Shown: one piece after another, positions 11,279 to 30,064 of the stretch
How positions within the stretch are numbered: position 1 is the first letter of the stretch
How the letters are laid out: every line of letters starts with the position of its first letter
DNA from: Leadbetterella byssophila DSM 17132
Lineage (GTDB): Bacteria; Bacteroidota; Bacteroidia; Cytophagales; Spirosomataceae
Direction: 5' to 3'
NCBI RefSeq assembly: GCF_000166395.1
Contig: NC_014655.1
Span: 496,001-560,000, forward strand
DNA: 64,000 nucleotides
Notes under the pieces: model-generated
Database searches by the model: none
Seen by the model: only the letters and a program-made list of their open reading frames with translations
What the model was told of the DNA's origin: nothing
Position numbers and translations under genes: made by a program

Positions 11279-12894
11279 TGAAGGAATTTATGCGAACAGT
11301 AGATTTTTTAGTCATTGGATCTGGAATTGCGGGGCTTAGTTTTGCCTTAAAGGCGGCCAAAAAAGGAAAGGTGTTGATCCTTACAAAAGTAAATGCAGAT
11401 GAGACCAACACGAAGTATGCTCAAGGAGGTATAGCTTCCGTTTTCGACCCGGCCACAGATTCTTTTGATAAACATATACAAGATACTCTTATAGCTGGAG
11501 ACGGCCTATGTGATAGAGAGATTGTTGAAATTGTAGTGTCTGAAGGCCCGGATAGAATTCGGGAACTGATAGATTATGGCACCAATTTCGATAAGATGGA
11601 AACCGGCGAGTATAATCTGACTCGAGAAGGTGGTCATTCGGAAAATCGCATCTTACACTACAAAGATATTACCGGTTGGGAAATCGAGCGTGCGCTTCTA
11701 GAGGAAGTGGCCAAGCATGAAAACATCGAGATTCTAACGCATTATTTTGCTGTAGAGGTGATTACTCAGCACCATTTGGGAGAAAAAACGAACGGTAATG
11801 CCGAATGTTACGGAGTTTATGCTTTGAATGTCAATACCATGGAAGTAGAAAAGATACTTTCAAAGGTGACCGTCATGGCTTCCGGAGGTGCAGGTCAGAT
11901 CTATTCTTCTACCACTAATCCTATCATTGCTACGGGTGATGGGATTGCTATGGTGTACAGGGCAGGAGGAGAAGTGAGAGATATGGAGATGATTCAGTTT
12001 CATCCTACTTCTCTTTACAATCCGGGTACCTTCCCAAGTTTCTTGATAACTGAAGCCGTGAGAGGCGAAGGTGGAGTGTTGAGAGATAAATTTGGAAGGG
12101 AGTTTATGTATGACTATGACGAGAGAGGTTCCCTTGCTCCCCGTGACATCGTAGCCCGCTCCATAGACGCAGAAATGAAGAAGTCAGGAGAGGAGCACGT
12201 ATGGCTGGATATTACACATAAACCTAAGGAGTTTATTCTACAGCATTTTCCTAACATATATGAAAAATGCCTGAGCATAGGGATAGATATAAGCAAAGAC
12301 TATATACCTGTTACCCCTGCGGCACATTATTTGTGTGGTGGTATTAAAGTAGATGAATTTGGTAGAACCACTATCAAGAATCTATATGCCTGTGGTGAGT
12401 GCTCTTCTACCGGACTACATGGCGCGAATAGACTGGCCTCCAATTCTTTATTAGAAGCGGCGGTTTTCGCGCATAGAATCGCAGGTTCTGCACTGGAGAT
12501 AGTGGATCAATTGGATTTTGAAACCAAAGTTCCGGAATGGAATGAGTTCGGAGCGGTACAAAGCAATGAAGAGATTTTGGTTTCCCATAATACCCGAGAG
12601 CTGCAGAAGATGATGTCAGATTACGTAGGTATAGTGCGTTCTGATTTCCGTTTAGACCGGGCTGAAACACGTATGAAGATGCTGAGGGACGAAACGGAGG
12701 AGTTTTATCGAAAGACTAAACTGTCTGTGAAACTTTGTGAGTTGAGAAACTTGATTCTTTGTGCGCAGATGGTGATACAGTCGGCTAAAAAGCGCAAAGA
12801 GTCCAGAGGATTACACTACAATACGGACTATCCTTATAAACTAGGAGGAAAGCCGGAGAATACCGTTTTGGGGAGGCATTTATCAGCCTCCTAA
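11278..12894 (+). CDS. nadB: L-aspartate oxidase
   Basis: A 538-residue flavoenzyme that oxidises L-aspartate to iminoaspartate, the first step of de novo NAD synthesis, together with NadA. The FAD-binding GSGIAGLSFALKAAKKG motif (residues ~13-30), the TKYAQGGIASVF segment, FHPTSLYNPG, and the C-terminal GANRLASNSLLEAAVFAHR signature of the succinate dehydrogenase/NadB family are all present, followed by the helical C-terminal domain. The ATG overlaps the kdsD stop. No nadA or nadC is in the window. Confidence 0.96.
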   Translation: MKEFMRTVDFLVIGSGIAGLSFALKAAKKGKVLILTKVNADETNTKYAQGGIASVFDPATDSFDKHIQDTLIAGDGLCDREIVEIVVSEGPDRIRELIDYGTNFDKMETGEYNLTREGGHSENRILHYKDITGWEIERALLEEVAKHENIEILTHYFAVEVITQHHLGEKTNGNAECYGVYALNVNTMEVEKILSKVTVMASGGAGQIYSSTTNPIIATGDGIAMVYRAGGEVRDMEMIQFHPTSLYNPGTFPSFLITEAVRGEGGVLRDKFGREFMYDYDERGSLAPRDIVARSIDAEMKKSGEEHVWLDITHKPKEFILQHFPNIYEKCLSIGIDISKDYIPVTPAAHYLCGGIKVDEFGRTTIKNLYACGECSSTGLHGANRLASNSLLEAAVFAHRIAGSALEIVDQLDFETKVPEWNEFGAVQSNEEILVSHNTRELQKMMSDYVGIVRSDFRLDRAETRMKMLRDETEEFYRKTKLSVKLCELRNLILCAQMVIQSAKKRKESRGLHYNTDYPYKLGGKPENTVLGRHLSAS

Positions 12895-18261: not shown

Positions 18262-20718
18262 TTAGCGTTTTAATGGGATTTCTTTATTGATCTCTACTAT
18301 ATCTACTTCATCCCTCTTAGATATTCCTAAAAGGTGTTCAGAGAAGTAATCCGCCATCTTCCAGAAGAAGTATTCAGTCATGTTGCCGAAGGCATGACGC
18401 TGCCCCGGTAATAAGACAATATCAAATCTCTTATTGGCTTTAATCAGTGCGTCAGCCATGCGAATGGTGTTAGCGGGATGGACATTATTGTCAATGTCTC
18501 CTGTGGCTAGAAGTAATTTGCCTTTTAGATTCTTAGCTAGTTCTGTATTCTTCTCAATAGCGTAAGAGAAGGTAGTATCTCCTTTGGCACTTACTTTTTC
18601 CGTTACGCCGTGATGACGTTCACTCCACCATCTGTTGTAAATATTGTTTTCATGGTTACCGGCAGCTGAAACGGCTACTTTAAAGAAGTCAGGATAAACT
18701 AGCATAGCAGCAGTACTCATGAATCCACCTCCGGAATGTCCGGTAATTCCTACTTTGTTGATATCTATGTATTTATGTCTTGCTGCTAATTGTTCTACGG
18801 TAACCTTTTTGTCTTCTAAACCATAATCCCTAAGGTTGCCATATCCATACGTATGGTACCATTTGGAGCGGGCAGGGTGCCCTCCTCTGTTGCCTACCGT
18901 AATCACTATGAAGCCCATTTGTGCCAAACGATCTACACGATCCATGCTTCTACCAAAAGATTTGTTAACGGCTTCCGTTTGTGGACCTGGATATACATAT
19001 TCTATGATAGGATAGGTTTTGGTAGAGTCAAAGTCGAATGGCTTGTACATCACTCCGTATAGGTCAGTGATTCCATCTCCGGCTTTTACTTTGAAAGGTT
19101 CAGGGAACTTGTAGCCTGCGGCAAATAGAAGGCTTAGGTCTGCTTCCTCTAATTTCAGTATAAGATTTCCTTTGTTATCATATAGATCTGAGATCGGTAT
19201 GGTGTTTACTCTAGAGGAGTTATTTACAAAGTACTTGCCGCTTTCACTAGTCATGATTTGGTGATCAAAGTTGCCTTTGTTCAATAATTTAGGTTCTCCT
19301 CCTAGAAGCGACTGTGCATAGTGGTGTAGGTAATAAGGGTCTTCACCTGTCTCTTTTCCGTTAGCCGTAAAGGTGTAGGTTTGGGTTTTAGGATCATATC
19401 CTGTTACGTCTTCTGTGTTATAATCTCCTTGTGTCAATTGACGTATTAAGGTGCCGTCCTTTTGGTATAGGTAGAAATGGCCCCATCCGTCTCTTTGCGA
19501 CCAGTGTATAAACTGTGTATTATTATTGACAAAATAAGGTTTCTTGATGTCTAGATAGACATTTGACCTTTCACTAACCACGTTTCTCACTGAGCCATCT
19601 ACTCCAACGGCTACGATATCAATTCTCTTCAGGTCTCTACTGGATCTGCTGATATAGAATTCTTTTTCGTCGCCCAACCAATAATTGATATACAGTTTGC
19701 CTTTGTAGCTGCTTTTGTCTCTGTTTTTGGTATAGATGCTTACCGTTTGGTTTTTAAAAGCATTGACGTGGATCTTTTTTGAAGTAAGGGTCTCTGCATT
19801 AAACAAGTGAAGTTCTACCTCTGTGGAGTCCGTTTCTCCGGGCATTTGATACTTGTAAGTTTCTAAAGTAGGGCGTTTTCCTCCTACGTTATTGATAACC
19901 CACATGGGATTAAGGTGACGATTGTCTTTGCGGGTAAGGACGAAGTATTTTGCGTCGGGCGACCAACTTATCCATACGTTTTTCCTTTTGGATTCTTCCT
20001 TTTCATCTCCGCCGGTGGTGGTGCTGTATTGGTCTCCACCCCAGGCATAATATTGAACTCCATCTTTAGTGATCTGGTGTTCTACTATAGTGGAGTCGTT
20101 TTCATCTTTGATGGCCTTTTCGAAGTTAGCTCTATCCATCCAGTATAGGTTGTAATTCTTCGCGAAGAAGATTTTCATGGTGTCTGGAGAATAAGAGGCC
20201 CAGGTAGGTCTGGGTTTAACCTTAAGAGATTCATTGATCTCTTTTACCTGTTTAGTGAGCAAGTCATATTCTAGGTAGAATGTTTTCTTTTTGAGAGAAT
20301 CAGCTTTGTTCTTGAGTTTAGCTAGTTCTTCTTTTGATTTTATAGTGTCTTTTGTGCTTTTTACTTCGAATCGAATGCTTCTTTCGTCTTCTGTAAATTC
20401 TAGGTTTTCAATAGGTAGGTGTTGGGCGTCAAAGGGGTTCTTTACTATGCGGGTGATCTGACGGGCCAAGTCGCTATTGTCGAACAGGGGCTGTTTGGTT
20501 TTGGCATTAGGATCTACGAGGTACCATTTCTTACCTGAGGAGGTTTGGTATTCGTACCAAAATTTATCTGAATGATTGATCCAGGAAGGCCTTACTTCAG
20601 TGGAGAAGATGAGGGTCCTAAGTTTGGTAGGGGAGAATTTTGCAGCCTGTTCGTAGTTAGGTTTTTGTGCCCAAGTGAGAGCGGAACTCAGCAGGATTAG
20701 GGTTAAAGTTTTTCGCAT
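18262..20718 (-). CDS. Secreted S9 (DPP-IV-like) prolyl oligopeptidase family peptidase
   Basis: An 818-residue serine peptidase with a signal peptide (residues 1-17, ending LTWAQ). An N-terminal beta-propeller (~40-560) narrows access to the C-terminal alpha/beta-hydrolase domain. The catalytic triad is visible: S662 in GHSGGGF, D743 in GDIDNNV and H775 in PGQRHAFGN. Family S9 enzymes cut after proline or alanine in short peptides, and the Bacteroidota DPP-IV branch is periplasmic or outer-membrane linked. It is transcribed alone, and together with the M1 peptidase it suggests peptide use as nutrient. Confidence 0.93.
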   Translation of the reverse strand: MRKTLTLILLSSALTWAQKPNYEQAAKFSPTKLRTLIFSTEVRPSWINHSDKFWYEYQTSSGKKWYLVDPNAKTKQPLFDNSDLARQITRIVKNPFDAQHLPIENLEFTEDERSIRFEVKSTKDTIKSKEELAKLKNKADSLKKKTFYLEYDLLTKQVKEINESLKVKPRPTWASYSPDTMKIFFAKNYNLYWMDRANFEKAIKDENDSTIVEHQITKDGVQYYAWGGDQYSTTTGGDEKEESKRKNVWISWSPDAKYFVLTRKDNRHLNPMWVINNVGGKRPTLETYKYQMPGETDSTEVELHLFNAETLTSKKIHVNAFKNQTVSIYTKNRDKSSYKGKLYINYWLGDEKEFYISRSSRDLKRIDIVAVGVDGSVRNVVSERSNVYLDIKKPYFVNNNTQFIHWSQRDGWGHFYLYQKDGTLIRQLTQGDYNTEDVTGYDPKTQTYTFTANGKETGEDPYYLHHYAQSLLGGEPKLLNKGNFDHQIMTSESGKYFVNNSSRVNTIPISDLYDNKGNLILKLEEADLSLLFAAGYKFPEPFKVKAGDGITDLYGVMYKPFDFDSTKTYPIIEYVYPGPQTEAVNKSFGRSMDRVDRLAQMGFIVITVGNRGGHPARSKWYHTYGYGNLRDYGLEDKKVTVEQLAARHKYIDINKVGITGHSGGGFMSTAAMLVYPDFFKVAVSAAGNHENNIYNRWWSERHHGVTEKVSAKGDTTFSYAIEKNTELAKNLKGKLLLATGDIDNNVHPANTIRMADALIKANKRFDIVLLPGQRHAFGNMTEYFFWKMADYFSEHLLGISKRDEVDIVEINKEIPLKR

Positions 20719-21048
20719 GATGTTAAAAAATGTTTCGAAGCGAAAGTATAAAAAAAAGGTGTTAAGCTGTGTGTAAGCAAATGAAAGTTTTTTATAAGGA
20801 TGTGAAACTTGTTGGTAGTTTATAGTTAAAAAAGACTATAAAAAGCGGGTTGAACCGACAAATGATAGTATAAAAAAAGTAAATAATTGTATTTTACTAA
20901 TTAGTATATATATTTTTTAAGGATGTTTTTTGGGGATGCAAGCGGTACCGTTAAATAAAAATACGAATGGTAATGTTTTAGGTTTTGAATTATTGTTTTA
21001 TTTTCAAATCGGAATTATTTCGTGTTATCCTATAAAGCTAGAAAACAA
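20719..21048. other. AT-rich intergenic region
   Basis: About 330 bases between the S9 peptidase start and a possible micro-ORF. It is AT-rich with several T runs. No RNA family, strong hairpin or repeat was recognised, and it presumably holds the S9 promoter. A TACTTTCG box (minus strand, about 20743-20750) is one base off the -7 consensus. Confidence 0.4.
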
Positions 21049-21126
21049 ATGCATAAGGTTATGAAAGAAAAGGTTGGAATTATTGTGGTGTTGCTTCTCC
21101 TATTACTGGGAATTTTAGGAATGTAA
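21049..21126 (+). CDS. Possible 25-residue membrane micropeptide
   Basis: ATG at 21049 (or the second ATG at 21061) opens a 25- or 21-residue frame: a short basic start (MHKVMKEKVG) then one strongly hydrophobic stretch (IIVVLLLLLLGILG) and a stop. The length and charge would suit a single-pass inner-membrane peptide. It lies in an otherwise gene-free stretch. There is no homology evidence and such a frame can occur by chance. Confidence 0.3.
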   Translation: MHKVMKEKVGIIVVLLLLLLGILGM

Positions 21127-21197
21127 GTGACGGTCGCCGGTTGAGGTTTGGGAGCTTTAACGGGTGGTGTTAAGAGGGAGTTAGAAACTCCCTGGTA

Positions 21198-21614
21198 TTA
21201 ATTTTGGGGAAGTAATTTCTCCAGTTTATTGATCATATCTTCTTTTTCACGCAACATTCTCTCGTAGAGTTGAATTTTTTCTTCGTGAAGCTGAACTATC
21301 TTATCGATAGGATTAAAGATGGGTTGATAATTGAATAATGAGTTGCCAGTGGCGTGGTCATTATTATTTACGGTATTTGCGATTATGGTGATCGCTTTTT
21401 CTTCATCAAAATTCTTGATGGCCATATCTGGTATATTTAGGGCTTTTGAAACCTTGTAGAGCACTTCGGGTTCAAGTACGGCTTTTTGTTCCATCAATGA
21501 AACCTTTTTCTGGGTCCAGTCTTCGCCCAGTTCTTGTGCTAAGGCTTCTTGTTTAATGCCTAGCATTTCCCGAAATCTTTTAACATTTTTTCCTTCGTGT
21601 ATTTTTGGTTCCAT
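21198..21614 (-). CDS. XRE-family HTH regulator with coiled-coil tail
   Basis: About 138 residues from the preferred ATG at 21614 (a longer frame starts at a TTG at 21635). The helix-turn-helix region covers KIHEGKNVKRFREMLGIKQ and ALAQELGEDWTQKKVSLMEQK, then a linker and a charged C-terminal helix (VQLHEEKIQLYERMLREKEDMINKLEKLL) that probably forms a dimer coiled coil. It resembles small chromosomal XRE proteins of Bacteroidota. It lies near, and on the opposite strand to, the sigma-dCas12f operon. Whether it regulates that operon is not known. Confidence 0.8.
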   Translation of the reverse strand: MEPKIHEGKNVKRFREMLGIKQEALAQELGEDWTQKKVSLMEQKAVLEPEVLYKVSKALNIPDMAIKNFDEEKAITIIANTVNNNDHATGNSLFNYQPIFNPIDKIVQLHEEKIQLYERMLREKEDMINKLEKLLPQN

Positions 21615-21760
21615 GAGCATACATTTACTATTCAAACTTACTTAAAATTTTTGAGAAAATATAGAAGGATTTCGACATCTATTTTATCCCATTTTTTGAC
21701 TTTTTTATTCTCTTATTTTCTAGCGTAGAATTTTTCTTCCTATTTCATTTGCAATGGTTA

Positions 21761-21982
21761 TCAGCTTTTGATTTCTGCAAGCAGGTAGTCCAGCAATGTG
21801 CCCGGACGTTCACCTAAAGCTTTTGCAAGTAGGTATATCTCATCAGCTCTCATTTTCAAACAATCTTGTGTAGCGAATTCGCTTATGCGGTTAGGTCTAA
21901 TTCCTGTGGTTCTAGCTAAAGCAGCTTGATTTATAGATTTGGATTCCAGGTATTTTCCGAAAGGTGTCTTTTTCTTGGTCAT
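21761..21982 (-). CDS. Small XRE/Cro-type HTH protein
   Basis: A 73-residue protein consisting of almost nothing but an HTH: FGKYLESKSINQAALARTT, then GIRPNRISEFAT, then a Cro-like end LAKALGERPGTLLDYLLAE. Its start at 21982 faces the sigma-dCas12f operon, with about 70 bases between the two starts, so it is well placed to be a local repressor of that operon or of itself. The shared spacer is AT-rich and holds the palindrome ATTGCAAT. Confidence 0.8.
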   Translation of the reverse strand: MTKKKTPFGKYLESKSINQAALARTTGIRPNRISEFATQDCLKMRADEIYLLAKALGERPGTLLDYLLAEIKS

Positions 21983-22053
21983 ACTCTTATGTATTGCAAT
22001 ATAAATATATTAGAAAACGATATAAATTTTTGCTTGGTGTATTGAAAAACGTT

Positions 22054-22254
22054 ATGTTTATAGCGAAAAAAGATAACATAGTTTTTATGAGACTAGTTCT
22101 TCCTCAACCTGAATATTACAAGATAGCCCTTCTGAATTTGCTTAAGTTGTTGCAGCTTAAAGGAATACCAAAAGAAAGTATTGAAGACGTAAAGCGTGTT
22201 TACGAATTGTTGGAAATTTTAGATGCTAACATTAATGAGCAAAACATTTCTTAA
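22054..22254 (+). CDS. Small protein leading the sigma-dCas12f operon
   Basis: A 66-residue frame from the ATG at 22054; a second ATG at 22087 would give 55 residues. The frame is open further upstream, but those starts lie inside the divergent XRE gene. The sequence is mostly helical and Leu/Ile-rich (YYKIALLNLLKLLQLKGI, DVKRVYELLEIL). I recognise no domain. It ends 5 bases before the sigma gene, so it is almost surely co-transcribed and may be an accessory or regulatory part of the RNA-guided module. It could also be a leader peptide. Confidence 0.6.
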   Translation: MFIAKKDNIVFMRLVLPQPEYYKIALLNLLKLLQLKGIPKESIEDVKRVYELLEILDANINEQNIS

Positions 22255-22259
22255 GACCC

Positions 22260-23072
22260 ATGAACATTGAAAACATCAACCTCATCAAACTGAAAAACGG
22301 TAATGAAGCCGGACTGTCCTATTTCTATCGTAGATTTTTCCCCTGGTATACCTTTCGTGCATTTAGGTATATGAGGGATGATTTAGATGCGCAGTGTGCT
22401 GTACAGGAAGCGTTTTTACGTCTTTGGCTTAATCGGGCACAGGTGGATTCAGTAGAGAGTATGCATGAGTTTCTTAAGCGCCAAGTGCAAGAGGCCGCGA
22501 AAGCCTTCCATAGGAAACGAAGTAATGAGTTTAGGAAAAGTATGCTTTATTATTTTGATTATGATGACCCTGATATCCTAATAGGTCATAGGGCGGTGGA
22601 AGAGGAGGTTACAGAAGAACTTCAACCGGATGCATCAGATCAAGAGAAGCTAGATTCTATCCATCGTTTGTTGCCGCATTTAGGGAGAGAGCAGGAGTTG
22701 TTCATTCGTCTTTGTCTTCGTTTTAATTTCAATTATGAGCGTATAGCCTTCTACTTAGGGGGGATTCGGGATTATGAAGTTGCTAATAAGGTGAACAAAT
22801 GTATAGTTCAGCTGAAGACCTTAGTAGCTGATAGTAGCAAGTTAAGTAGTGCTTCGAAGATGGAAACGATAAGGGTAGATGAGCGCTTAACGCCTGAGCA
22901 AGCGGAGGTCTTAAAGCTGAGATATGAATTAGGTGCTTCCTTTGATGATATTGGTCAAGCCTTACAAATGCCTGTTTCGCGGGTAAGGGAAATCTTTATA
23001 CAAGCTTTTACTGTTTTTAAACATGGAAAAAATCATTCTTACTCGAAAAATACAGTTAGTTATTCCTTGTAA
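22260..23072 (+). CDS. Atypical ECF-like sigma factor, partner of dCas12f
   Basis: A 270-residue protein. Residues ~13-90 look like sigma region 2 (AGLSYFYRRFFPWY, DAQCAVQEAFLRLW, EFLKRQVQEAAKAFHRKR). Residues ~131-190 look like a divergent sigma4 (LLPHLGREQELFIRLCLRFNF..ERIAFYLG). Residues ~208-256 are a better sigma4 (LTPEQAEVLKLRYELGASF, DDIGQAL, PVSRVREIFIQAF). Two sigma4-like units make it longer than ordinary ECF factors (~180-200). No FecR-type anti-sigma gene follows; instead the last 50 bp overlap the dCas12f-like gene. This genetic fusion suggests the two proteins act together, with sigma recruited by the RNA-guided protein rather than by a promoter. Confidence 0.85.
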   Translation: MNIENINLIKLKNGNEAGLSYFYRRFFPWYTFRAFRYMRDDLDAQCAVQEAFLRLWLNRAQVDSVESMHEFLKRQVQEAAKAFHRKRSNEFRKSMLYYFDYDDPDILIGHRAVEEEVTEELQPDASDQEKLDSIHRLLPHLGREQELFIRLCLRFNFNYERIAFYLGGIRDYEVANKVNKCIVQLKTLVADSSKLSSASKMETIRVDERLTPEQAEVLKLRYELGASFDDIGQALQMPVSRVREIFIQAFTVFKHGKNHSYSKNTVSYSL

Positions 23073-24111
23073 GGATAGAGAAATTTTGAAATCCTATTAT
23101 GACCGTCTATATGAGTTCCAAAGGCATACATGTAAAGCTGCGAACTTGATTCATACCCATTTATTTATACAAGACAGGTGGAAAGAGATGGTATACCTGG
23201 CGGAAGACGCTAAGATATCTTTGGCGGATCATAAAAAGAAAGAAGGAGGGGTGCTGAATACTTCAAGGATGAACTCTACTTATAGGCAGTTAAGTGCACA
23301 TTTTCTGAAGGTTCTTCCTTCCAATACCATGAGTAATCTAAATCAAGCGGTATACAGGACTTATCAAGCGAATAGAGACCTGTATTGGAGAGGAGAGAAG
23401 TCATTGCCTAACTATAGGAGGGATATACCCATTCCATTTTCCAGTAGAGAGATGAGATGGGAGGAGGCAGGAGACGGAAAGAATTTCCTACTATATCTCT
23501 TTCGAATCCCCTTCAAGACCTATTTAGGTAGAGATAGATCAGAATTAAAGTCTCTTTTGAAGAAGATAGTCAAAGGTGAGATTGCTTTACGCCAGAGTGC
23601 ATTGCAGATTAAGAACAATAAGATCTATCTCCTTGCCAGTGTGGAAGTGGAGAAGGCTAAACATAGTTTGGATAAAACCCTGATAGCGGAAGTTGCCCTT
23701 TCATTAGAATATCCTTTGGTCATTAAAATTGGTAAAGATGAATTTCAAATTGGATCCAAAGAGGAATTCCTTTATAGAAGGTTATCTATCCAAGCTGCCC
23801 GGAGAAGACTTCAGCAAGCTTGCGCCTACAGATCAGGAGGGAAAGGGAAAGAAGAGAGGTATAAGTGTTTAAAGCACTATAAAGAAAAGGAGAAGAATTA
23901 CATTGAAGAGAAACTACATCTCTACAGCAGGAGGTTAATAGACTATTGTGTTAAGGCTGGTGCCGGAACCATTCTTTTGGTCAACCAATCCTATAAGGAA
24001 GAATTAGCAAAGGAAGATCCTATGCTTTTGAGGAATTGGAGTTATTATGGACTTAAGGAGAAGATTGCTTATAAGGCAAAGATGGCCGGTATACATGTGC
24101 TAGTAGAATAA
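23023..24111 (+). CDS. Nuclease-dead Cas12f/TnpB-like RNA-guided DNA-binding protein
   Basis: A 362-residue protein with the TnpB/Cas12f plan: a WED/REC-like N-terminal half with LPSNTMSNLNQAVYRTYQAN (~98-117) and the SLPNYRRDIPIPF block (~127-139), then a RuvC-like half. The nuclease is lost. By motif alignment the RuvC-I Asp falls at A225 (AEVALSLEYP against the family pattern GVDLGIKY). The RuvC-II Glu falls at V320 (TILLVNQ against TIVIEDL). The protein stops at GIHVLVE, just where active relatives continue with the CxxC zinc ribbon and RuvC-III Asp. The bridge helix (RRLSIQAARRRLQQA) and the post-RuvC-II helix (NWSYYGLKEKIAYKAKMAGI) remain. It overlaps the sigma gene by 50 bp and is followed by a folded RNA-like region and susCD. 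No TnpA or transposon ends are present. Confidence 0.88.
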   Translation: MEKIILTRKIQLVIPCKDREILKSYYDRLYEFQRHTCKAANLIHTHLFIQDRWKEMVYLAEDAKISLADHKKKEGGVLNTSRMNSTYRQLSAHFLKVLPSNTMSNLNQAVYRTYQANRDLYWRGEKSLPNYRRDIPIPFSSREMRWEEAGDGKNFLLYLFRIPFKTYLGRDRSELKSLLKKIVKGEIALRQSALQIKNNKIYLLASVEVEKAKHSLDKTLIAEVALSLEYPLVIKIGKDEFQIGSKEEFLYRRLSIQAARRRLQQACAYRSGGKGKEERYKCLKHYKEKEKNYIEEKLHLYSRRLIDYCVKAGAGTILLVNQSYKEELAKEDPMLLRNWSYYGLKEKIAYKAKMAGIHVLVE

Positions 24112-24117
24112 AAAGAT

Positions 24118-24223
24118 TTTTTTAGGGGCTGTCCGCACAGCCTTAGGTTGGGGCTATTCGCACTCAATAAGTGAAAGCATGCGGTTAAGGCGTGAGAAAC
24201 CTACATCTAAGCTTGTAATTCCA
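24118..24223 (+). ncRNA. Probable guide RNA of the dCas12f-sigma system (scaffold plus guide)
   Basis: The segment begins about 7 bases after the dCas12f-like stop and codes for no credible protein. It can fold: GGCTGT/ACAGCC (24127-24132 with 24137-24142, loop CCGC, extended by two G-U pairs); CACT/AGTG (24161-24164 with 24170-24173) inside GCT/AGC (24153-24155 with 24176-24178); and a long-range TAGGTT/AACCTA pairing (24144-24149 with 24198-24203), as expected for a TnpB/Cas12f-type RNA whose 3' end closes on its scaffold. The guide would then start around 24204. Boundaries are inferred; no known family alignment was possible. Confidence 0.6.
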
Positions 24224-24250
24224 GTTTTTGTGGCGTTTAACTGGACTTTT
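24220..24250 (+). terminator. Possible terminator hairpin of the guide RNA
   Basis: TCCAGTT (24220-24226) pairs with AACTGGA (24239-24245) around a 12-base loop, followed by CTTTT. It would end a transcript carrying the guide RNA before the susC upstream region. It is weak as a terminator, with a long loop and only four T. Confidence 0.4.
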
Positions 24251-24369
24251 GGGATTATTTCGGGGATTTATTTTCTTTTTCAAATGAATTTTCATTTTCC
24301 ATTTGCGCTGATAAAAGTACACGTCTACATTTGAAACTATAGTTAACCTATAGAATAAATATATTAAAT
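24251..24369 (+). promoter_or_regulatory. susC upstream region, candidate RNA-guided target
   Basis: No TAnnTTTG -7 box is present at a proper distance upstream of susC, although a TTTG occurs at 24330-24333. A CTATAG-TTAAC-CTATAG element lies at 24337-24353. The bases from G24323 onward share CTACAT with the presumed guide start (24201-24206), and 13 of 23 positions agree over 24324-24346 against 24200-24222. That is a weak match that chance could give, so the target assignment is only a lead. Confidence 0.35.
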
Positions 24370-27300
24370 ATGAAGCACGTCTATTTTTATCGTCATTGCC
24401 TCCTGGCCTTGCCATTATTGCTGATATTTGGCAGTGCATGGGCAAACAGGAATTTAGAAGGTCTAGTGAAGGATGCAAACGGTCCTCTGCCCGGAGTGTC
24501 TATAGCCATTAAGGGTCAACTCGCTGCTGCCATTTCAGATGCCGATGGTAGGTTCAGTTTGCAGATTCCAGATGCTAAGGTGGTACTCGTTTTTACCAGC
24601 GTGGGGTATAAATCCAAAGAAGTAGAAGTCCTACCTGGTTTTAATACCCAGCTTGTAGTGGAATTAGAGGAAGATAACCAGCAGTTGACGGAACTCTTGG
24701 TAGTAGGTTACGGCACTAGAAACAAGAATGAATTCACAGGGTCTGCCGTACAGATCAAAGGAGATGCCATTAAAGAACAACCTGTTCAGTCTTTTGATCA
24801 AGCCTTACAAGGGCGAGCAGCCGGTGTAAGTATTGCACAACCTAACGGAGTACTTAACAACCCTCCTGTGATAAGAATCCGTGGGGTCAATTCCATTTCC
24901 TTAAGCTCTTATCCACTCATCGTAGTAGACGGTATACCTGTAAATACAGGTAATGTTTCCGGGGATTCAAACGTGCCGAATAACCCTTTAGGTGACATTA
25001 ACCCTGCGGATATTGAATCTATAGATATCCTTAAAGATGCAGCATCTACGGCCATCTACGGTTCTAGAGCCGCAGCAGGGGTTCTTTTGATCACCACTAA
25101 AAGAGGAAAAGAAGGAAAGGCCAAAGTTAGTTATGAAGGTTGGGTAGGAGCTTCTGAAGCTGTTCGACTGCCAAAACTTCTCAATGCGGAACAGTTTGTG
25201 GCCATCAAAAATGAAGCAGTTTTGAATTCTAGGATTTTAGCAGGACAATCCGTTGAAAATTACGAACAGTTCTTCGCTGATCAGCACCCTGATGGCACAC
25301 CTGTAGATACGCGATGGTATGACTACATTTATAGAACCGGTGTGTCCCACCATCATGGACTAAATATCTCCGGAGGAACTGCTGCAACTTCCTATTTCTT
25401 CTCCGCCAATTATTCCGACCAAAAAGGCTTCTTACAAGACAATGATTTCCGCAGAGCAGGGGTAAGATTTAATATAGACCATAGAGTAAGCGAAAGACTA
25501 AAACTTAGAGGTAACTTTAGTTTTAACAATACTTTTAACCAGTCTCCTAACTCCGGTTCTTTGCCTAATAATGCTCAGTTGATCATAGGAGCAGCGAGGA
25601 TGTCATTTATCCTTCCGCCAAACGTGGATCCATACCTTCCTGACGGGTCTTGGAACGTCACCTCTACAGGCCAGATAGGAAATGGAAAGAATAAGATAGT
25701 TAGTGCCTATTATAATCCTGTGGCTCTTTTTGCTTTGTCAAAATATACTTCGGAGAACGACAGGATTCTAGGTAACCTTGGGGCAACATTGAACCTAGCA
25801 AAAGGATTAGATTTGAATACTACCTATTCCATTGACCGCTTAAAGGTTGAAAATATAGGCTTTAACAGCTCCAAAGTAGGAAGTTCCTCAACGACAACCG
25901 GAGGTAATGCTTATCAAATAGCGGCTTTGAGGAACAACTGGAACTGGACCACCACTTTGCAGTATGACCTACGAAGGTCTACAAGTCACTTAGGTTTATT
26001 GGCCGGATATGATGTACAGAAATTTGAAAACTCGTCATGGGGTGCCTCTGTTACTCAGGCGGCTGATACGTATTTCGAAAACTACCAAGGCACTTGGGGA
26101 AATATCACACCGACCGGTAATTCTTTGGAAGAAAAAGCTTATATCTCCTATTTTGGTAGGATCACCTATGATTATTTGGATAAATACTTCCTTACACTCA
26201 ATTATCGGAGAGACGGAAGTTCACCTCTAGGTGCGAATTACAAATTTGGGGATTTTGGAGGAGCTTCCCTGGGATGGTTGATTTCTGAAGAAGCTTTCTT
26301 CCCTAAAGGTGATATACTTAGTTCCGCCAAAGTAAAGGCTAGTTGGGGTAGAGTAGGGAATGGTAATATAAATAATGCCTATGGTTCCTTAGAACTGTAT
26401 GGAGCATCTTTATACGGCACAGTGCCTACATGGGGTTTGGCTCAAGCCGGAAATCCGGATTTAGGTTGGGAAACCAGTGATCAGACAAACGTAGGTCTGG
26501 AGTTTGGCTTACTTAAGAACCGTATACAAGGAGAAGTAACCTGGTTCAATAATGATGTGAATGGTCTCATTCTCAGTTCTCCCCAAGCACCTTCTAAAGG
26601 GATACCGGGTGATGCCATTTTAGCAAATGTAGGCTCTTTGTATAATAGGGGTTTAGAAATTAGCCTTAGTGGAGATGTGGTGAAAAAAGGCAAGTTTTCA
26701 TGGAATGCCAATCTAAACTTTACCATCGTAAAGAACCGGGTAACTGCGCTAGCAGAAGGAAACGCTGATATCATTGGCACCACGCATGTAGCGGCTAATG
26801 CTTTTAATATAACGCGAGTGGGATTTTCAGTAGGTAGTTTATATGGTGCTGTGGTGGATGGTGTTAATCCGGAGAACGGTAGACAAATTTTCATCAATAA
26901 GAATGGTGAGAAGGTACAATTTACTCATGTAGCAGGACCTGGAGATTATAGATGGTCTTATTTGGATGGACGTGAGGCACCAGCTATCACTGCCGCAGAT
27001 TATCAAATTTTGGGGAATGCATTGCCTATCTTCTACGGTGGATTTAATCATAGTTTCTCTTATAGCTCCTGGGATGCCGGTTTGAATTTCACATTTGCTG
27101 GAGGGAATTACATCATGAACGGTACACGAGCTACCCTTTTGGATCAGAGATATTTTAATAATAGCACCGAGATTTTGAAACGTTGGCAAAAACCGGGAGA
27201 TATCACAGATATTCCTAGGCTAGTTTATAATGATCAATTATCAAATGGAAACAATGGACCAGTGTCAACCAATGTAGAGAAAGGAGATTTTGTACGCTTA

Positions 27301-27528
27301 CAAAACATTTCTTTAGGATATAGGGTGCCATTTACGCTAGTGAATAGGTTAGGGGCGAATAGTATTAGGGTTTATGCTCAAGTATCCAATGCTTTCTTAT
27401 GGACCAAATACAGCGGCTTAGATCCGGAATCATCTTCAAATAGCAACTCAAATACTTCTCCCGGGGTAGAATTGAATGCTATTGGCCAAGCTAGAACGTA
27501 CACTTTTGGAATTAATCTAGGATTATAA
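24370..27528 (+). CDS. SusC-family TonB-dependent outer-membrane transporter
   Basis: A 1052-residue receptor. A signal peptide (to about SAWAN, residue 26) is followed by a carboxypeptidase-regulatory-like beta domain (~28-110, GLVKDANGPLPGVSIAIKG), a plug (~118-240; VGYGTRNKNEFTGSAVQI, PLIVVDGIPV, ILKDAASTAIYGSRAAAGV) and a 22-strand barrel. It imports a ligand captured by the SusD partner using TonB energy. It has no N-terminal STN signalling domain, so it is not expected to signal through an anti-sigma factor. It lies 258 bases after the dCas12f-like gene with the putative guide RNA between. The substrate is unknown. Confidence 0.95.
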   Translation: MKHVYFYRHCLLALPLLLIFGSAWANRNLEGLVKDANGPLPGVSIAIKGQLAAAISDADGRFSLQIPDAKVVLVFTSVGYKSKEVEVLPGFNTQLVVELEEDNQQLTELLVVGYGTRNKNEFTGSAVQIKGDAIKEQPVQSFDQALQGRAAGVSIAQPNGVLNNPPVIRIRGVNSISLSSYPLIVVDGIPVNTGNVSGDSNVPNNPLGDINPADIESIDILKDAASTAIYGSRAAAGVLLITTKRGKEGKAKVSYEGWVGASEAVRLPKLLNAEQFVAIKNEAVLNSRILAGQSVENYEQFFADQHPDGTPVDTRWYDYIYRTGVSHHHGLNISGGTAATSYFFSANYSDQKGFLQDNDFRRAGVRFNIDHRVSERLKLRGNFSFNNTFNQSPNSGSLPNNAQLIIGAARMSFILPPNVDPYLPDGSWNVTSTGQIGNGKNKIVSAYYNPVALFALSKYTSENDRILGNLGATLNLAKGLDLNTTYSIDRLKVENIGFNSSKVGSSSTTTGGNAYQIAALRNNWNWTTTLQYDLRRSTSHLGLLAGYDVQKFENSSWGASVTQAADTYFENYQGTWGNITPTGNSLEEKAYISYFGRITYDYLDKYFLTLNYRRDGSSPLGANYKFGDFGGASLGWLISEEAFFPKGDILSSAKVKASWGRVGNGNINNAYGSLELYGASLYGTVPTWGLAQAGNPDLGWETSDQTNVGLEFGLLKNRIQGEVTWFNNDVNGLILSSPQAPSKGIPGDAILANVGSLYNRGLEISLSGDVVKKGKFSWNANLNFTIVKNRVTALAEGNADIIGTTHVAANAFNITRVGFSVGSLYGAVVDGVNPENGRQIFINKNGEKVQFTHVAGPGDYRWSYLDGREAPAITAADYQILGNALPIFYGGFNHSFSYSSWDAGLNFTFAGGNYIMNGTRATLLDQRYFNNSTEILKRWQKPGDITDIPRLVYNDQLSNGNNGPVSTNVEKGDFVRLQNISLGYRVPFTLVNRLGANSIRVYAQVSNAFLWTKYSGLDPESSSNSNSNTSPGVELNAIGQARTYTFGINLGL

Positions 27529-27539
27529 TTAATAGACAC

Positions 27540-28952
27540 ATGAAAAAGATATTCATTGCTATATCACTTTTAGGATTTACAGCTTGTGATCAAGATAAGC
27601 TTCTCCATACCGTTCCTCCTACTCAGCTTAGTTCTGCTGATGTGTTTAATACTCCAGAAAGAATAGAGGCTCTGGTCAACGGGATCTACAAAGCCATTAA
27701 AAATTCAAGTCTTTACGGTGGCAGATACCTTCTTTATAATGACGTGAGAGGGGAGGATTTTATCAATATCACGGGGAATACATTTACCGGATATGAAAGT
27801 TGGAATAACTCCTATTCCTCTGGTTCAAATGATATTATCAATCTGTGGTCGGCAGGCTATACAACCATAAACCAAGCCAATATTTTGATAGATGGTTTGG
27901 GTCGAAGTAAGGGAGTGATTAGTGAATCTCAGGCTGCAGCATACATAGGAGAGGCTAAGTTTCTGAGGGCTTTAACCTACTATAGTTTAGTTACTGTATA
28001 TGCGCGGCCTTATGCTGATAAGGAAGGACAAAATCCGGGTCTTCCTTTGCGACTATTAGCAGAAACTACTCCCGCGAACAATGATCTGGCGCGTAGTTCT
28101 GTAGCAGAAGTTTATCAGCAAATCATCAAAGATTTGGATGATGCAGAGGCATCTTTACCGGCTAATTATAGTACCGCACTCTTAAATACTACCAGAGCTC
28201 ATAGGAATACAGCTATCGCCCTTAAAACAAGAGTGTATTTAACCTTAGGGAAATGGGATAAGGTAGTGGAAGAAGCTAGAAAGATTGTACCGCAAATCCA
28301 GTCGCCATTCAAAGCTACAAGCGGTGTAAATCATGAGCTACAAGACGTGGTACAGATTTTTCAGAATAATTTTACTACTACGGAGTCCATTTTCTCCATG
28401 CCGTTCTCCTCTTTGGATAATCTCGGGGGGCAGAGCGCAATAGCGTACATTTATAATACGAATTCAGAATATCACCTCAATCCTACAGGTATTTTTGGTG
28501 ATCCTCAATGGGGGGAAAGGGATGCTAGGAGGCAATGGTTAAGAATCAATAATGGAAGAGCCTTCTTGGCTAAATTTGGCTCTACAGCTCCCTTCTTGAA
28601 CTATATTCCAGTCATTCGGTATTCAGAAGTACTTTTGAACTATGCGGAGGCCTTGGTGAGGAAAGGTGAATGGAGTTTATCTAAGACCTTGGTAGAGGCA
28701 GTGCATCACCGCTCAGATCCTAATTATTCTTTTCAAAGCACTACAGGCCAAGGATTATTAGAAAGCATTTGGAAAGAGAGAAGGATTGAACTTCTAGGCG
28801 AAGGTTTTAGATCCAATGATCTATTGAGAAATCTTTTGCCAATTCCTCAGAAGGGTTCGGCTTCTTTAACGGCCGGAAGGGTAGATCCTCATGATGAGAA
28901 TTATATCTTCCCCTTGTCAAATGCGGAAATAGCAACTAATAAAGCGCTATGA
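27540..28952 (+). CDS. SusD-family nutrient-binding lipoprotein
   Basis: A 470-residue surface lipoprotein with a lipobox ending at C16 (LLGFTAC) followed by DQDK, an acidic start like the export signal of surface lipoproteins. TPR-like helices with ALVNGIYKAIKN, EAKFLRALTYYSLVTVYARPY and the C-terminal LLNYAEALVRKG and WKERRIELLGEG motifs are typical of SusD/RagB. It caps the SusC barrel and binds substrate. It starts 11 bases after susC. No glycoside hydrolase follows, so the pair stands alone, and the ligand may not be a glycan at all. Confidence 0.93.
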   Translation: MKKIFIAISLLGFTACDQDKLLHTVPPTQLSSADVFNTPERIEALVNGIYKAIKNSSLYGGRYLLYNDVRGEDFINITGNTFTGYESWNNSYSSGSNDIINLWSAGYTTINQANILIDGLGRSKGVISESQAAAYIGEAKFLRALTYYSLVTVYARPYADKEGQNPGLPLRLLAETTPANNDLARSSVAEVYQQIIKDLDDAEASLPANYSTALLNTTRAHRNTAIALKTRVYLTLGKWDKVVEEARKIVPQIQSPFKATSGVNHELQDVVQIFQNNFTTTESIFSMPFSSLDNLGGQSAIAYIYNTNSEYHLNPTGIFGDPQWGERDARRQWLRINNGRAFLAKFGSTAPFLNYIPVIRYSEVLLNYAEALVRKGEWSLSKTLVEAVHHRSDPNYSFQSTTGQGLLESIWKERRIELLGEGFRSNDLLRNLLPIPQKGSASLTAGRVDPHDENYIFPLSNAEIATNKAL

Positions 28953-28958
28953 TTATCT

Positions 28959-28982
28959 GGGCCTCATCATTGGGGCCCTTTT
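28959..28982 (+). terminator. Terminator after susD
   Basis: GGGCCTC (28959-28965) pairs with GGGGCCC (28972-28978), with one G-U pair and a 6-base loop, and T4 follows. The right arm lies within the end of the convergent outer-membrane deacylase gene. Confidence 0.7.
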
Positions 28983-30064
28983 AATGTATACCCAATGGTC
29001 CATTCTATATAATCTGCCTTTCCTGCATGTGCCTTGATGGAAACGCCGGCATTAAAGGGATGAGAGAAGTAGTATCTGGCACCAGCTCTTAAAAAGATCC
29101 TCTTAAGTTCTCCATTGAAAGACTGTTTGTGTAAATAGTATCCCACGTTTCCATTCAGGGTTAGATCTGAAGTTAGATGATGTACAATGTATAAGGAAGG
29201 TCCACCGGTTAGCACGGCACCTAAGCTACCAGCTTTTTGTCCGGCAATTCTCTCTTCTTTCCCCGACTGAGAATAGAAAAAGTCATATCCTCCTCCCAGT
29301 CGCCATTTATGTGAAACGTATTTGCTGGCGTACAGAGAAACCGTACTTTTCCAAAACCTCTCTTTGGAGGTTTTTTGAAGTTGTTTTACTCCACTTCCGT
29401 ATGAAAAGTCGAAGATCAAGTTTTTAGGATAATCCGGAATTGTTGGCCTTACATAAGGTTCGATTTTTTTCGGTTCGTAAATCACAGTTACAGCAAAGGG
29501 CACCAGATTAATACCCTTGTTGGGCAAAGACAAGGATCCGTTAGAAAAGTGATGAAAAGAAAATCCCGCTCCCACCTTCCATTTCTCATGCCATCTATAT
29601 GTAGTTCTTAAGCCGAAGTCTATGAAAACGTTCGTTTTTGAGCCTATAACTAGATTCAAAGGGTTTTTATCCTCATCATATGGGTTGAAATTCCCGGACA
29701 GACCAAGCCCTATTCTATAATCAAAGCCCCATTTGGAATTAGATTTTGGAGAAATGGGAGTGTCTACAAAACCATATAAGGCGAAAGGATTTCCTATGAT
29801 GTCAGAATTGAAGGTACTTGAGTAAAAACCTATACCGTATACGGGATAGTTGTAAATTTGATGGTAATGATCCTTTTTTCCGGATGATTTCCATCCCACA
29901 CGGGCATTTATGCCATTGTAGTACGCATCTTCATAGGTAGTACTTTTGACACTTTTTTGCGTTAGCATCCCACCATTTTCCGTTTCAACTTCTATGCTTA
30001 GTTGAGCAAATATGAACTGTGGTAAAAGTATTAGCAGTAATAATTTCTTATAGCACATGGTCAT
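28967..30064 (-). CDS. PagL-like acyloxyacyl hydrolase (outer-membrane lipid deacylase)
   Basis: A 365-residue outer-membrane beta-barrel with a signal peptide (to about FIFAQ, residue 21; the ATG at 30058 may be the real start). The motif H172-F-S174-N-G in a HHFSNGSLSLPNKGIN context matches the acyloxyacyl hydrolase/PagL family, whose His-Ser pair removes an acyl chain from lipid A. It is the last gene of the presumed glycosphingolipid operon and overlaps the glycosyltransferase gene by 11-17 bp, so its lipid substrate here could be lipid A or a sphingolipid. This is inference. Confidence 0.75.
   Translation of the reverse strand: MTMCYKKLLLLILLPQFIFAQLSIEVETENGGMLTQKSVKSTTYEDAYYNGINARVGWKSSGKKDHYHQIYNYPVYGIGFYSSTFNSDIIGNPFALYGFVDTPISPKSNSKWGFDYRIGLGLSGNFNPYDEDKNPLNLVIGSKTNVFIDFGLRTTYRWHEKWKVGAGFSFHHFSNGSLSLPNKGINLVPFAVTVIYEPKKIEPYVRPTIPDYPKNLIFDFSYGSGVKQLQKTSKERFWKSTVSLYASKYVSHKWRLGGGYDFFYSQSGKEERIAGQKAGSLGAVLTGGPSLYIVHHLTSDLTLNGNVGYYLHKQSFNGELKRIFLRAGARYYFSHPFNAGVSIKAHAGKADYIEWTIGYTLKGPQ

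Follow-up and report, generated by a model that had tools for sequence, protein, structure and literature searches.

The window analysed here is a 64-kb stretch (positions 496001-560000 of its contig) of the complete, 4,059,653-bp genome of Leadbetterella byssophila DSM 17132. The locus under study encodes an extracytoplasmic function (ECF) sigma factor, a nuclease-dead Cas12f (dCas12f) and a guide RNA (gRNA), and lies directly upstream of a susC/susD pair; the dCas12f gene is the only one in the genome. This locus genuinely belongs to the dCas12f-sigma-E family, of which it is a new member. The operon, which extends from 22087 to about 24250, is probably an RNA-guided transcription system of this type with its target elsewhere, the neighbouring susCD being served by a promoter of their own. 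The identity of the system is based on the homology of both proteins to a solved complex, the lost catalytic residues, the evidence of purifying selection and a gRNA with the fold of the family.

The sigma factor and dCas12f

The Cas12f-like protein matched PDB entry 9n9c, ‘Nuclease-deactivated Cas12f’, over residues 6-361 with an E value of 2.1e-105 in a phmmer search. It also matched 9n9m, 9n9o and 9n9q, and the chains of active Cas12f and TnpB scored weaker; a Pfam search gave no significant family. Alignment to the active Cas12f 9nzo reveals that the RuvC Asp and Glu are replaced by A225 and V320, respectively, and that the C-terminal part is absent, the protein ending ahead of the third Asp and the zinc finger. 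The active RuvC nuclease of a type V-F effector is therefore lacking, as its catalytic residues are lost. The sigma protein contains Sigma70_r2 and Sigma70_r4 (Pfam) and matches the RpoE chain 9n9q_C with an E value of 1.4e-31 over residues 11-258. These PDB matches, together with a gRNA of its own, bear out the membership in the dCas12f-sigma class that a preliminary description of this DNA had proposed.

For comparison, 80 related loci were fetched, and the closest relative found is L045, a Leadbetterella metagenome-assembled genome (MAG). The dCas12f shares 68% identity with its orthologue in L045, with pS of 0.97 (synonymous sites saturated) and pN/pS of 0.22, which indicates that the dead protein is under selection. 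In the dCas12f tree, the sequence from the window joins that of L045 in a single clade (100/100), which is placed with Sphingobacteriaceae/Parapedobacter inside a 100/97 branch, apart from Dyadobacter of the same family. This branching suggests that Leadbetterella may have acquired the operon by lateral transfer. We also note a dCas12f locus of the Sphingobacterium type on L053, a contig that is assigned to a Neobacillus MAG and is probably misbinned.

The guide RNA

A covariance model, R1, was built from 31 of the gRNAs of the relatives, with Leadbetterella left out. The scaffold of the relatives consists of GAGGSTGCTTGTACASCC, the GTGAG/CTCAC stem, stem 3 and AT[AG]CAAC, and the guide comes after it. 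Its three stems covary, with 95% of cells paired as compared with 31-47% when slid, and with double changes in 68 cells as compared with 25 in shuffles. R1 found a single match in the window, at 24125-24207 (28.4 bits, E 3.7e-5), which is also the top-scoring match of the whole genome. It gave two matches in L045 and, with E values up to 0.05, 154 across the 80 loci. The folded non-coding segment described as a guide RNA is thus a gRNA gene by the evidence of R1 and not of its folding free energy, which is uninformative (z -0.2 to -0.9). No CRISPR repeat array was found in 20700-29000.

The point at which the guide begins is uncertain. Alignment with the Mesonia/Salegentibacter gRNAs places the end of the scaffold at ATGCGGT, after which the guide would read TAAGGCGTGAGAAAC(C), and a start at 24186 is the preferred boundary. 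The first 15 nt of this guide are identical in L045, whose scaffold agrees at only 40/67 columns and whose 3' flank shows no relationship. Alternatively, CATGC-GGTTAAG-GCGTG would form stem 3, and the guide would start at 24201 (CTACATCTAAGC).

Several relatives carry more than one gRNA. In L096 (11092-11732), L100 (5732-6504) and L081 (11127-11966), a single dCas12f is followed by 4-6 complete gRNA genes in tandem; the guides differ in L096, and the same guide occurs four times in L100. Repeats spaced by ~87 nt and containing CGATAATAGGCATTCCA lie between dCas12f and the downstream susC in Sphingobacterium L049, L050 and L064, for example at 11365 and 11452 of L050.

Search for the target

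The guide of the flavobacterial relatives, GCGTGGGCTCTCTTAT, provided a positive control: it has further 5'-G-flanked matches with 0-2 mismatches in 11 genomes. Among the matches inspected, several are situated 546-959 nt ahead of susC-type genes, and another three stand 165-215 nt ahead of the system's own sigma gene.

The whole genome was searched with the Leadbetterella guide under either boundary, allowing 2-3 mismatches, and reversed patterns served as controls. At up to 3 mismatches, the preferred guide showed no excess, with 28 sites in the window genome as compared with 26 for the control and 36 in the sister genome as compared with 34. No second copy of the guide was found in the window at this threshold. 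The best 5'-G-flanked genomic site, at 1283952 on the minus strand, was rejected; it falls between convergent genes that are 54 bp apart and is directed into susD. The other genomic matches checked lie inside coding sequence. In the upstream regions of the 38 other susC genes of the genome, 16-mers near the guide reached 12/16 at best, as in shuffles, apart from one 13/16 at an A/T-rich offset. A site ahead of the operon's own sigma gene, 5'-G followed by TAAAGCGTG at 22190, matches at 9/16, a value that 28% of shuffles reach, and it is not conserved in L045. Self-targeting of the gRNA gene in the window was discarded as well, the base ahead of the guide being T and not the 5'-G motif. The second gRNA of L045, used as a clue, led to no target, and the Dyadobacter guide TGGGTTAGCTTAATT had no clear one. 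Action in trans is therefore inferred from the relatives.

The one weak candidate belongs to the alternative boundary only. A guide from 24201 (CTACATCTAAGCTTGT) would find 5'-G followed by CTACATTTAAGTTTGT at position 3266324 of the genome, where a TonB-dependent receptor gene follows after 582 nt. The match is 14/16 on the same strand, the distance is like those in the flavobacteria (546-960 nt), and the scaffold end, AGAAAC, would then resemble the ACAAC of the family. However, the site falls within the initial codons of a small gene, by our own estimate chance alone would give about 0.45 sites of this kind in the genome, and this boundary fits the stem-3/linker anatomy of L045 more poorly. 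We regard this as a rather improbable solution.

A system in decay, with a drifted scaffold and no target left, would explain why no genomic target was found and why the gRNA scores 28 bits as compared with 60-87 bits in many relatives. Its intact reading frames, the purifying selection noted above, and a 3' end of the gRNA that is identical over 15 nt in the sister species where the remainder has diverged argue against it, and of all the explanations considered it is given the least credence.

A separate repeat was seen in these searches: CACGCTTGTAATTCCAT recurs in the genome, for example at 302568, 344766, 836087 and 1938098 (L280-L282, L286). The copies that were read lie inside ORFs (open reading frames) of the opposite strand, 139-196 aa long, and probably represent a repeated mobile gene.

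Relation to the susCD pair

On the + strand, the order is small ORF, sigma, dCas12f, non-coding segment, susC and susD, and the sigma and dCas12f genes share 50 nt; the ORF coordinates agree in both respects with the preliminary description. SusC comprises CarbopepD_reg_2, Plug and barrel domains in Pfam. The same searches corroborate the absence of an STN domain from SusC and of FecR among the neighbours scanned, both of which had been claimed.

The proposal that the guide targets the susC upstream region, and that susC is transcribed without normal promoter boxes, found no support. Behind 5'-G, the best match in the susC leader is 7/16 for the preferred guide and 8/16 for the alternative guide, and 72-74% of shuffled guides equal the best match of the leader; a guide site there was accordingly rejected. 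TTTG-N20-TACATTTG, the textbook Bacteroidota sigma-70 promoter consensus, is present at 24302-24333, 37 nt ahead of the susC start. This pattern has 4 matches on both strands of the window (1.9 expected), and only this one is in promoter position before a gene. Transcription of susCD from this housekeeping promoter is most likely.

Orthologous loci were compared for a conserved sigma-dCas12f-RNA-susCD order, and it is not kept, even within the genus. L045 retains the operon and its upstream neighbours (the HTH (helix-turn-helix) gene, an XRE gene and a dipeptidyl-peptidase gene), with no susCD beside the operon. Among the other loci, 5/75 have susC within 3 kb downstream. Since there is no guide match, susC has its own promoter and the order is not conserved, the adjacency is best read as incidental or as that of a separate transcription unit.

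Guide-directed recruitment of the complex to the region ahead of susC, where it would start susCD transcription, would fit the immediate adjacency on the same strand, the remote targets in Flavobacteriia, which apparently are susC leaders, and the few other loci with susC 0.8-1.8 kb downstream. It is nevertheless unlikely in view of a leader match no better than that of shuffled guides, the canonical promoter, and an order unconserved within the genus. To the same degree unlikely is a single read-through operon of sigma, dCas12f, gRNA and susCD, in which susCD would be co-expressed and untargeted; the common strand, the short intergenic spaces and the weakness of the hairpin after the gRNA speak for it, and the susC promoter motif and an L045 operon without susCD speak against it.

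Some observations weigh against the reading that we prefer, namely a dCas12f-sigma-E system with a remote target beside independently transcribed susCD. No convincing target was found across the complete genome, the promoter consensus has about 1.9 chance matches per window, four Sphingobacterium loci and one Puia locus carry susC close downstream, and, with the guide boundary uncertain, mismatch-tolerant targeting of susC is possible.

A divergent HTH_26 gene and a flavobacterial leader element

Head-to-head with the sigma operon lies a gene for a small Cro/C1-type HTH protein (Table 1). A hidden Markov model search that took in all ORFs of the window and the 80 loci, with about 1.5 Mb of flanks, found 10 members, all on the opposite strand just upstream of sigma: in the window, L045, L079, L085, L094, L100, L106, L109, L112 (weak, 3e-4) and L122, from Leadbetterella, Mesonia, Salegentibacter, Pedobacter and Dyadobacter. 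No homologues occurred elsewhere in these flanks. Because the divergent position is conserved in 10 loci, the HTH_26 protein is a candidate dedicated regulator of the sigma operon. An HTH_26 gene facing the sigma operon appears to be new.

The flavobacterial guide matches fall inside a conserved ~120-nt leader element, of which the guide constitutes 16 nt; the element was not found in Rfam. It can assume two folds. In the first, a terminator-like hairpin has the guide match as its 5' arm, with 98% of cells paired and double changes at 4 pairs. The second is a bulged stem with an inner hairpin, in which 95% of cells are paired and the left and right arms of the same sequence average -12.2 kcal/mol as compared with -8.5 when exchanged between sequences. 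The mutually exclusive structures and a T-run make the leader attenuator- or riboswitch-like. That a guide copies part of such a leader in Flavobacteriia looks new.

The leader precedes susC genes in L132, L135, L136, L138, L142, L146, L150-L155 and L159 (about positions 1435-1582). It precedes the sigma-dCas12f genes at L097:8937-9058, L102:8992-9113, L110:1998-2120, L111:8928-9050, L107:8482-8603 and L098:1697-1822, that is, before sigma in Yeosuana, Sinomicrobium, Galbibacter, Mesonia algae and two Echinicola. These six loci do not overlap with the HTH_26-bearing loci, and the element was found neither in the window nor among the susC leaders of its genome. In Echinicola L110 and L111, the sigma leader has the 16-nt flavobacterial target, but a different guide, AAAAATCCGATCTAAT, is found in the local gRNAs; the coupling of guide to leader is thus not strict.

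As a tentative extension, which we consider possible and somewhat doubtful, the input modules of such operons may be exchangeable, either a divergent HTH_26 gene, as in the window, or the ~120-nt leader, which is found ahead of their susC targets as well, the flavobacterial guide copying one strand of the attenuator. Guided initiation past the 5' arm of the attenuator, or pairing of the guide with the nascent leader, would then bypass the terminator.

Proposed mode of action

The published dCas12f-sigma-E system reportedly accomplishes RNA-guided, promoter-less initiation. By analogy, the inactive Cas12f would carry the gRNA and bind DNA matching the guide; dCas12f would hold its partner sigma, and RNA polymerase would start there with no need for a promoter. 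The supply of the operon would probably be set by the divergent HTH_26 regulator, judging from its conserved position, and not by a FecR/STN relay. The operon would most likely act on a site elsewhere.

Coordinates of the features are collected in Table 1. The small ORF ahead of sigma has ~55-66 aa and ends at 22254; homology with L045 begins at the ATG at 22087 (55 aa), identity with the counterpart in this same-genus relative is 33%, and a Pfam search gave no family.

Table 1. Features of the dCas12f-sigma locus and its surroundings (window positions)
Feature	Positions	Strand	Basis
73-aa Cro/C1-type HTH protein, HTH_26 (E 3.8e-8)	21761-21982	-	head-to-head with sigma operon
Shared intergenic region with conserved ATATAAATATATTAGAANNCGATA, candidate operator/promoter	21983-22086	.	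alignment with L045; function inferred
Small ORF	22054-22254	+	upstream of sigma
dCas12f-associated sigma-E-like ECF sigma factor, 270 aa	22260-23072	+	Pfam and PDB match
Nuclease-dead Cas12f, 362 aa	23023-24111	+	PDB match, alignment with 9nzo
gRNA scaffold: stem-loops 1 and 2, short stem 3, linker ATGCGGT	24125-24185	+	R1, fold, covariation
Guide, preferred boundary, TAAGGCGTGAGAAACC	24186-24201	+	alignment with Mesonia/Salegentibacter gRNAs, L045 comparison
Weak terminator-like hairpin TCCAGTT-N12-AACTGGA-CTTTT after gRNA	24220-24250	+	sequence; terminator scan gave no call
Canonical Bacteroidota housekeeping promoter for susC, TTTG-N20-TACATTTG	24302-24333	+	pattern search
SusC-type TonB-dependent transporter, no STN	24370-27528	+	Pfam; TIGR04056, 772.8 bits
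SusD-type lipoprotein	27540-28952	+	Pfam SusD-like_3 and SusD_RagB

Comparison with known systems

With this locus, a very new class of RNA-guided activators gains a member from a complete and probably cultivable genome, and the adjacency of the locus to susCD must not be taken as targeting. The comparative set of 80 loci and 154 gRNA matches yields a scaffold model that has been tested, together with a positive control for target searches. Possible switches of such systems are suggested as well, an HTH regulator in one subset and an attenuator-like leader in another.

Both proteins are homologous over nearly their full length to those of the Bacteroidota dCas12f-sigma-E complexes (PDB 9n9c, 9n9m, 9n9o and 9n9q). 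Shared features include the position of sigma upstream of dCas12f, the gRNA downstream with its three-stem scaffold, and a RuvC-dead, C-terminally shortened Cas12f. The locus differs in its linker, which is AT[AG]CGG[TG] as opposed to AT[AG]CAAC in the family, in its divergent HTH_26 gene, in having no recognisable target, and in a dCas12f that groups with Parapedobacter and not with its family member Dyadobacter. The ECF sigma/FecR SusCD loci likewise have an ECF-type sigma gene adjoining susCD; in contrast to these, STN and FecR are absent here, and the sigma is of the dCas12f-linked type.

TldRs are TnpB-like nuclease-dead repressors, as cited in PMC13418256. The likeness lies in the use of a RuvC-dead TnpB/Cas12-type protein as an RNA-guided transcription factor. 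TldR represses by binding, whereas the sigma partner in the Leadbetterella locus implies activation, and the subfamily and the hosts differ.

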